A stretch of DNA of 64,000 nucleotides from the NCBI GenBank assembly GCA_951812755.1, contig OX638329.1, forward strand, positions 4,534,522 through 4,598,521. Direction: 5' to 3'. Positions 45,891-48,692 of this stretch are shown here, piece after piece. This stretch comes from an uncultured Latescibacterota bacterium. Its GTDB lineage: Bacteria > Latescibacterota > UBA2968. The number at the start of each line of letters is the position of its first letter. Positions within the stretch are counted from its first letter, which is position 1. Under the pieces are notes generated by a model that did not search any database, had not been told where the DNA came from, and saw only the letters and a program-made list of their open reading frames with translations. A program made the translations under genes and the position numbers.

Positions 45891-45921
45891 ATTATCTCCT
45901 TTGAATCATGTGAAGCAAAAT

Positions 45922-46716
45922 TCACGCTATCGTCCTGGGATCCGCCAGTAGGTCAGTGCCCGCCAACTCCATTCCAACGGACCATATCGAATGGTAGAGG
46001 GCCATGCCCAGCAACATGATACCCGCAGATTGCCAGAACACTTCAATTGGCAGGACCGTCGTGTGCATTCCCAGTGTATCGCTGGTTCGTTGTGCCTGCT
46101 GTGCGAACCAGCCGCCGCGGTAAGCGAGCAACTCCGCATCAATTTTGGCCGCATCCGGTGCCCACACCGTTACGATTTCCGCCACATCTTTTTCGGGAAT
46201 AAACTCTGTTGTCAGACCTATTCCGATGGACAGCACACTCGCCACTGCAAAAACAACGAGGCCGCTGACTACCAGCGTGCGCGGCGAACGATCCCTAAAG
46301 AGAAAGATGACGGAGCCGCAAAGCGCGTAGGCAACCAATATATCGCCCGACCACAGGAGATAGGCGTGCATAAGACCGAAGGCAAGCAGCCAGAACATGC
46401 GCCGGTAGTGCAAGCCAGCGGAGCGACCACTGCGAGCCTCTGCGCGATCGGCAAACAAGCAGATACCGGCACCAAAAAGAAGCGAGAACATCGACAAAAA
46501 CTTCTGATCGACGAGCAGGTAGCTAACCAGCCAGGTAAAAAAGTTGACACCATTGAGATCGCCATAAGCTGTGGGGTTCAGGTACGCGGCAAAAGGCATT
46601 GCAAACGCCTGGATATTCATGACCAGAATACCGAGTACGGCAAAGCCGCGTAGCACATCCAGACTCTCAATGCGATCTGAGGCTTCAACTGGGCTATTTA
46701 GAACGCGTTTGTCCAT
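45922..46716 (-). CDS. DUF418-family membrane protein, C-terminally truncated
   Basis: The 264-residue protein starts MDKRVLNSPVEASDRIESLD and then LRGFAVLGILVMNIQ, the typical DUF418 opening, with about six membrane helices. Family members are usually near 400 residues; here the frame ends soon after the LLGMALYHS segment that normally begins the DUF418 domain, so the C-terminal part is missing. AAGGTG precedes ATG 46716. It may be a decaying gene. Confidence 0.7.
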   Translation of the reverse strand: MDKRVLNSPVEASDRIESLDVLRGFAVLGILVMNIQAFAMPFAAYLNPTAYGDLNGVNFFTWLVSYLLVDQKFLSMFSLLFGAGICLFADRAEARSGRSAGLHYRRMFWLLAFGLMHAYLLWSGDILVAYALCGSVIFLFRDRSPRTLVVSGLVVFAVASVLSIGIGLTTEFIPEKDVAEIVTVWAPDAAKIDAELLAYRGGWFAQQAQRTSDTLGMHTTVLPIEVFWQSAGIMLLGMALYHSIWSVGMELAGTDLLADPRTIA

Positions 46717-46916
46717 ATTTTCACCTTTACAGATTTGCTTACAGGGAATATATGCCATTATTAAAATTGAACACACTATATCTGATACCGCGCGCATCGC
46801 ACTTACAAAATGGCTTGCCCAATACACCCATCTCGAATAAGTTTATTAATGCTGTGATTTCTACTATTAAAGATCATGTTTCCATGGATGAGCTTGAGCG
46901 ATGAGCCATTTAGAAG
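46717..46916. other. Intergenic spacer before the MITE-like element
   Basis: No convincing gene or promoter is seen in these 200 bp; the sequence is AT-rich, especially 46840-46880. Confidence 0.4.
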
Positions 46917-47092
46917 CTGTTTTAAAATTAATAACTGATGTTACGCATGTCCGGCGTTTTGTCATGCTGAGCGTAGCCGAAGCATCTTTTCCACCTGAGT
47001 TGGTAAGAGATTCTTCGACTCCGCTGCGCTCCGCTCAGAATGACAGGGCAATAGCGCATAGCCGAGAAGGGACAAAATGAGTTTTAAAACAG
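46917..47092. mobile_element. MITE-like element with inverted ends and a nested REP-type palindrome
   Basis: Outer 11-bp inverted repeats CTGTTTTAAAA (46917-46927) and TTTTAAAACAG (47082-47092) flank about 176 bp with no coding capacity. Inside, 46961-47045 carries the widespread motif GTCATGCTGAGCG ... CGCTCAGAATGACA. A nonautonomous insertion is the simplest reading; no target duplication was confirmed. Confidence 0.55.
46961..47045. repeat. REP-like palindromic unit inside the element
   Basis: The ends GTCATGCTGAGCG and CGCTCAGAATGACA are near inverted copies, with GAAGCATCT and AGATTCTTCGA between them. This form recurs in many bacterial genomes as an interspersed repeat. Confidence 0.65.
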
Positions 47093-47121
47093 TCTCTTAG
47101 ATTTTCATGGGAGTTGTTGTT

Positions 47122-48180
47122 ATGATGATCAAACGTCTTAAAGTAAAAAACTGGCGCAATTTTCGAGAACTCGATGTTCCATTGCGCGAGCGTCAGTTTG
47201 TCGTAGGTGCAAATGCGTCCGGTAAGTCCAATCTTCTCGATATTTTTCGCTTTCTTCGAGATATTGTAAAAGCAGAAGGCGGCGGATTGCAGAAAGCGGT
47301 CAAAGACCGCGGAGGCGTATCTAAAATCCGTTGTCTAGCGGCGCGACAATATCCAGAAATCGAAATTCACCTTGCAGACAATGCAGAATCTCCCGAGACC
47401 TGGCGATATGCGATAGGAATTAAGCAGCAACCTCGGGGTTATCGCCAGCCTTTTCTCACTCATGAACGCGTGTGGAAAGATGGCAAACAGATTCTCAACA
47501 GGCCAGATGCAGACGATGCAGAGGATCAACAACGACTCACACAAACCTTTCTTGAACAAATCAACGTCAATGCAAATTTCCGGGATATTGTCCATTTCTT
47601 GCAAAATATTACCTATTTGCATCTGGTTCCTCAACTTTTGAGGTTTGCCGATTCGATTCAGGGAAGAGTTGTTGAAGATGATCCCTTTGGACAAGGATTT
47701 TTGGAAAGAATTGCCACAGTTCAGGAGAGGACGCGTCGTTCCCGGTTGCAAAAAATTGAACAAGCCCTAAAAATTGCTGTGCCCCAACTTGAGCAATTGG
47801 TATTCATTCGCGATGAAATCACAGGAAGGCCTCATTTGCAAGCTCTTTATTCTCACTGGCGTCCGAATGTAGGCTTGCAACGAGAAGATCAATTTTCTGA
47901 TGGGACGCTCCGGCTTTTGGGCTTATTGTGGTCTCTTCTCGAAAGTGACTCCGTACTCTTATTGGAAGAGCCAGAGTTGTCATTAAATGCGGGCATTGTC
48001 TCTCAACTCGCACCGTTTATTTCCCGGATGCAAAGAAGCAGACGCCCCCAAGTCTTTGTAAGCACACATAGCGATGCATTGCTTACAGAAAAAGGCATTG
48101 ACGGCGGGGAAGTTCTGTTGCTTACACCAGCGATGCTGTTTCGACTAAAATTCTCGAATATTTTGGCCTTGAAATCGTAA
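47122..48180 (+). CDS. AAA/RecF-type ATPase with altered C-terminus
   Basis: The 352-residue protein has Walker A GANASGKS (29-36), an ABC-like signature (FSDGTLRLLG), Walker B (LLLEEPE) and the STHS switch motif. Such ATPases often pair with a TOPRIM nuclease in defence modules (OLD, PARIS-like; family knowledge). Its last residues (TPAMLFRLKFSN...) do not match the family; the frame from 48129 is the TOPRIM partner's. A GGGAG lies before ATG 47122. Confidence 0.75.
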   Translation: MMIKRLKVKNWRNFRELDVPLRERQFVVGANASGKSNLLDIFRFLRDIVKAEGGGLQKAVKDRGGVSKIRCLAARQYPEIEIHLADNAESPETWRYAIGIKQQPRGYRQPFLTHERVWKDGKQILNRPDADDAEDQQRLTQTFLEQINVNANFRDIVHFLQNITYLHLVPQLLRFADSIQGRVVEDDPFGQGFLERIATVQERTRRSRLQKIEQALKIAVPQLEQLVFIRDEITGRPHLQALYSHWRPNVGLQREDQFSDGTLRLLGLLWSLLESDSVLLLEEPELSLNAGIVSQLAPFISRMQRSRRPQVFVSTHSDALLTEKGIDGGEVLLLTPAMLFRLKFSNILALKS

Positions 48181-48692
48181 ATAGAATTGGATTTAGGGGC
48201 AATTCTTTCCTGAAACGAAACGCCCGTAACCTCAACCGCACTGCCAGGGGATTGTATAATGTCTTTCTGTTGACAGATTTAGATTCTCCAAAGAATTGCC
48301 CGCCAAAGCTCATTCAATCTTGGGTTGGAGCACCTCTAAATTTTGGATTTCTCTTTTGCGTTGCGGTCATGGAAATCGAATCCTGGATTATGGCGGATCG
48401 CAGAGGCATCGCAAAATTTTTATCGGTACCGCTCAATCGTATCCCACACAACACAGACGAAATAGAAAAACCCAAAGAGTTTCTCGTTTCGCTTGCCCGA
48501 CAGAGTAGAAAGAGAAAATTGAGACAAGAATTGGCTCCTGCACAAGGCGCGACGACCGCAAAAGTAGGCCCTCTCTATAATGCGCGTTTTAACGAATTTG
48601 TACGAGACCATTGGGATTTAGAGCGCGCTGCTACTGTATCTACAAGTTTAAAAAGAACAATGGACCGAATCAGTAGTTTGTACTCCGCTTGA
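48129..48692 (+). pseudogene. TOPRIM-like (DUF4276-type) partner lacking its start, out of frame with the ATPase
   Basis: The frame from 48129 reads SDAVSTKILEYFGLEIV, then NRIGFRGNS, TDLDS and MEIESWIMAD, the TOPRIM/DUF4276 pattern with acidic residues. No usable start codon occurs upstream; the first is TTG at 48252, which would omit the N-terminal strand. A deletion or single-base shift has joined it to the ATPase gene, so both are probably inactive or the pair needs a frameshift. Confidence 0.6.

Follow-up and report, generated by a model that had tools for sequence, protein, structure and literature searches.

In PARIS, which pairs the ATPase AriA with AriB in a two-gene ATPase/TOPRIM layout, AriB is a Toprim nuclease that acts as a two-metal tRNase, and its E26A variant does not give the wild-type cleavage products, as reported in PMC12409363. 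OLD proteins, as described in PMC10568477, hold both domains in one chain. A further pair, HEC-01, from the Hma-embedded candidates, is catalogued in PADLOC as a candidate defence system, with the profiles HEC-01A for the ATPase and HEC-01B for the TOPRIM-type partner. A literature search for HEC-01 with PADLOC found no paper, which we do not take to mean that HEC-01 is unstudied; for HEC-01 alone, the titles among the matches listed were not about defence systems, one being on Desulfovibrio prophages, and nothing was found for DUF4276, or for DUF4276 with defence and ATPase. In the Septu and retron systems, the partner of the PtuA ATPase is an HNH nuclease and not a TOPRIM protein.

The locus described here lies in the window, a 64,000-nucleotide stretch of an uncultured Latescibacterota genome. 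It is very probably a recently broken copy of a HEC-01 pair, disabled by a deletion between CAGCGA repeats that removed the inner ends of both genes. The ATPase frame is open over 47101-48180 on the forward strand and runs from an ATG at 47122 to a TAA at 48180, with GGGAG at 47109-47113 ahead of ATGs at 47122 and 47125 and an extra in-frame ATG at 47107. Its homologous part, 47122-48132, is a truncated AAA_21/ABC-type ATPase (PF13304, 4.1e-35) whose best PADLOC profile is HEC-01A (E 1.8e-142, profile positions 1-337 of 382); the regions of Walker A, the signature (QFSDGT), Walker B (LLLEEPE) and the H-loop (STHS) are retained. One base back relative to this frame, a second is open over 48102-48692, and from 48129 to 48692 it encodes a TOPRIM-type, DUF4276-like protein whose best PADLOC profile is HEC-01B (E 4e-49, profile positions 16-197 of 204), with a weak match to DUF4276 (0.0092, under the gathering score). 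NCBIfam gave no family for the TOPRIM frame and nothing above cut-off for the ATPase. Since one frame matches HEC-01A and the startless frame beside it HEC-01B at these values, the pairing is far beyond chance. The sequence-only reading had called the pair defence-type, which stands at the level of the family, through the PADLOC HEC-01 match; the antiviral role is putative. The motifs quoted in that reading (SDAVSTKILEYFG, TDLDS and MEIESWIMAD) are found in the TOPRIM frame, and its description of this frame as lacking a start codon and lying inside the end of the ATPase gene is borne out both by the frames and by the DNA alignment with relatives. The earliest internal start listed in the TOPRIM frame, TTG at 48252, lies past the first strand and helix.

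Among ten other genomes of the same genus, three carry the TOPRIM gene: L013 (also L023, a Candidatus Latescibacterota MAG), L014 and L015 (also L024, an uncultured Latescibacteria bacterium), with 83%, 83% and 76% protein identity, respectively, to the TOPRIM frame of the window. In all three, the pair consists of two complete genes that overlap by ATGA, which holds both the stop of the ATPase gene and the start of the TOPRIM gene; as in these relatives, the window genes are adjacent and on the same strand, with the ATPase first, but the window copy lacks DNA across the gene border, whereas most of the relatives examined are complete. The alignment places a 180-bp gap in the window at 48127|48128, among other small differences, one of them an in-frame gap of 6 bp in the window ATPase. 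The missing 180 bp comprise 45 codons at the end of the ATPase gene, closing with VLPRTRPEHAEQLS and about four residues, the ATGA overlap, and 14 codons at the start of the TOPRIM gene (MRSNKVILAVEDTL in L013), so that both HEC-01 profiles are matched by genes that have each lost their inner end. The scar, CAGCGA at 48128-48133, corresponds to a 6-bp direct repeat whose copies lie 180 bp apart, one at each breakpoint, in L013 and L015; because the ATPase breakpoint of L014 reads CAGCAC, we infer rather than observe the repeat to be ancestral. Of random 100-300 bp deletions placed in these operons, only 0.17-0.22% have homology of at least 6 bp, and CAGCGA at the breakpoints is what would be expected of slippage or of a microhomology-mediated deletion.

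Of 386 genomes searched with a TOPRIM profile, 30 gave the gene, among them the one that holds the window; extending the search to two small phyla, those around G097 and G087, brought in few further genomes (4 and 3). Forty loci were compared, 36 of them distinct and other than the window. All 36 have the ATPase frame, which is at least 385 aa unless cut by a contig end (as in L093), against 359 from stop to stop in the window, and none has it fused to the TOPRIM frame. Of the two explanations offered by the sequence-only reading, for which it had proposed a comparison of homologues, the first, that a deletion fused two genes, agrees with the loss here of 180 bp that L013, L014 and L015 all have. 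The second, a single-base error hiding an ATPase-TOPRIM fusion, is not supported: these relatives have two separate overlapping genes, no fused form is among the 36 loci, and a one-base change could not supply 59 missing residues (45 + 14). The same counts led us to reject a hidden fusion made functional by programmed -1 ribosomal frameshifting within 48102-48177: both frames are indeed open there, with the TOPRIM frame one base back, but the product would still lack those residues, Glu11 of the TOPRIM protein among them, the offset between the frames is explained by the ATGA overlap of the relatives, and no canonical slippery heptamer was seen on inspecting the sequence by eye, all of which makes frameshifting extremely improbable.

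In the window, the ATPase frame enters TOPRIM-type DNA at 48128, and its final 15 residues (MLFRLKFSNILALKS, 48133-48177, followed by the TAA up to 48180) come from TOPRIM DNA translated in the wrong frame. The ATGA overlap in the intact relatives of the same genus suggests that their two genes are probably translationally coupled. A deletion between repeats 180 bp apart would have taken the C-terminus of the ATPase, the stop/start overlap and the N-terminus of the TOPRIM protein with its glutamate; the ribosome would now add 15 foreign residues to the ATPase and then stop, and no start codon would precede the conserved sequence of the TOPRIM frame. Besides the start codon and first strand, the latter frame lacks Glu11, which all 13 full homologues in the alignment have, and it carries Arg91Cys, found in the window alone (Arg in 13 of 13 other aligned rows). 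No second TOPRIM copy that could complement was found in the window's genome, where the one match is the frame itself, and no complementing ATPase copy either, its 14 further matches all being weak (E 3.4e-6 or worse). The present copy is most likely non-functional, as judged from what it has lost, and the locus most likely an ordinary decayed one and not a new fusion protein. It is very unlikely that the truncated ATPase retains a function of its own in the absence of its nuclease partner: its ATP-binding motifs are intact and its substitutions look constrained (dN/dS 0.09-0.11 against three relatives), but its C-terminal strand and helices are gone, and a recent deletion explains the constraint equally well.

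Predicted structures of intact relatives indicate what these ends contain. For the intact TOPRIM protein (L023; mean pLDDT 86, 9 sequences), the six top VIA rows are OLD Toprim domains (Z 7.1-8.1) and PARIS AriB (Z 7.2-7.4), aligned over 153-161 of 201 residues, followed by rows with Z 6.4 over 102 and 125; since unrelated folds also reach Z near 8, these rows support the TOPRIM fold but do not prove it. With Foldseek, an OLD Toprim region comes first (E 0.0019), and a sequence search of the TOPRIM profile against solved structures gave only one match, at chance level (E 0.58). In the full rows of intact relatives, the TOPRIM hallmarks are Glu11 after strand 1 (13 of 13) and a DxD motif (12 of 13, L029 being the exception). 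The part lost from the TOPRIM protein corresponds in the model to the first strand with Glu11, and the part lost from the ATPase is predicted to be the last strand and three helices. The intact ATPase model (pLDDT 79.8) resembles PtuA and the heads of SMC and Rad50, with PtuA among its top Foldseek matches (best E 4.2e-11).

The locus shares features with several systems. Like PARIS it has a two-gene ATPase/TOPRIM layout, with AriB among the best VIA rows; AriB from its residue 16 aligns to residue 1 of the model, so that Glu11 would match Glu26 if the alignment is ungapped. However, AriA and AriB are not the best profile matches: the ATPase of the window matches AriA at 1.4e-31, far below HEC-01A, and no AriB profile is among the nine PADLOC matches (E <= 1) of the TOPRIM frame, which was scanned as it stands, lacking the first 14 residues. 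Over its first 48 residues, the ATPase profile matches GajA of Gabija (5.5e-12), and the TOPRIM model resembles the Toprim domains of class 2 OLD proteins; unlike the single polypeptide of OLD and Gabija, there are two genes in the window and in the 36 related loci. By analogy with PARIS and OLD/Gabija, the intact relatives may use the ATPase as a sensor that controls a TOPRIM nuclease: the ATPase would probably sense infection and hold or activate the TOPRIM protein, which would itself be a two-metal nuclease.

Changes private to the window number 19 synonymous to 8 nonsynonymous in the ATPase and 8 to 11 in the TOPRIM frame, compared with 16:8 and 11:13 in L013 and 22:6 and 8:6 in L014. Relaxed selection, which would have pointed to an old pseudogene, was not found in comparing the window with L013 and L014 (Fisher p 0.49-1). 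The lack of relaxed constraint leaves three readings of the deletion: that it is recent, that it is not fixed, or that it is not real. We take the break to be probably recent and rank an assembly fault as less likely. An error of assembly or consensus, or a minority strain variant in an organism that carries the intact pair, would fit the two frames, which apart from the break are open and evolve much as those of intact relatives do. This is nevertheless unlikely: the loss is a clean 180 bp at a 6-bp repeat and not a homopolymer slip, the genome is a single 6.53-Mb contig, and the segment also carries Arg91Cys, a MITE-like element and a DUF418 deletion as separate lesions.

The pair lies at a variable site. 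Just upstream of the ATPase start is the MITE-like element, 184 bp on the forward strand (46913-47096) with terminal inverted repeats GAAGCTGTTTTAAAA / TTTTAAAACAGTCTC, flanked by the target-site duplication TTA (46910-46912, right copy 47097-47099) and not present in L013 or L014. The genome contains at least 40 matches to it (40 scored of 200 candidates), 39 besides itself, at 95-98% identity; 30 copies were aligned with their flanks and show by eye 3-bp TNA target duplications. Beyond it, the neighbour gene at 45922-46827 on the reverse strand has decayed, with loss of its DUF418 domain through a deletion of about 430 bp at about 45991/45992; the missing stretch is seen relative to both L076 and L073, and L076 is intact and retains DUF418. 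The MITE-like insertion and the DUF418 loss are independent lesions beside the broken pair, so the surroundings decay as well. A neighbouring ABC-transporter gene is present in nine other genomes of the genus. Two of these (G003 and G006) have the pair at the same site as the window, while in G008 it lies on the opposite side of a Gfo/Idh oxidoreductase gene (L024:2808-5878), which suggests movement or rearrangement within the variable site. The other six (G001, G002, G004, G007, G009 and G010) are without the pair; in G004, G007, G009 and G010 the flanks (window positions about 45907-45915 and 48731) are separated by 92-101 bp. A different insert lies nearby in G002, and G001 has a DUF418-type gene only. 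In L023, an IS605 OrfB/TnpB-type gene (PF01385, PF07282; L023:1205-2443) is found upstream of the HEC-01 pair. Two viral contigs also carry the intact pair, which in one of them (L089) lies beside CI- and CII-type phage regulators; plasmid and phage collections searched with the L013 TOPRIM protein gave no match.

TOPRIM frames are whole in 34 of the 36 distinct loci. In G052 (L021/L086; G052:C416:6033-6613), HEC-01B is split by a frameshift, and in L026 (L026:3959-4555) it has an in-frame TAG, the adjoining ATPase being full-length in both. It could be, though we hold it doubtful, that the HEC-01 effector is repeatedly inactivated while the ATPase gene remains, as in the window, G052 and L026; if so, this suggests that the TOPRIM nuclease would be costly or autoimmune and shed first. 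Two independent breaks that both fall in the TOPRIM gene, about one third of the operon, have a chance of about 1 in 8 or 9, the loci compared were collected through TOPRIM, and recurrent effector loss is without statistical support.

Reading the apparent fusion as the scar of a deletion keeps a false "ATPase-TOPRIM fusion" out of catalogues of defence systems. The pieces lost or changed here, namely the C-terminal helices of the ATPase and Glu11 and Arg91 of the TOPRIM protein, flag parts of interest in the intact relatives. The locus would represent a candidate defence operon in the course of decay in a natural genome of the Latescibacterota, and the alleles within this one genus are intact, empty or broken.
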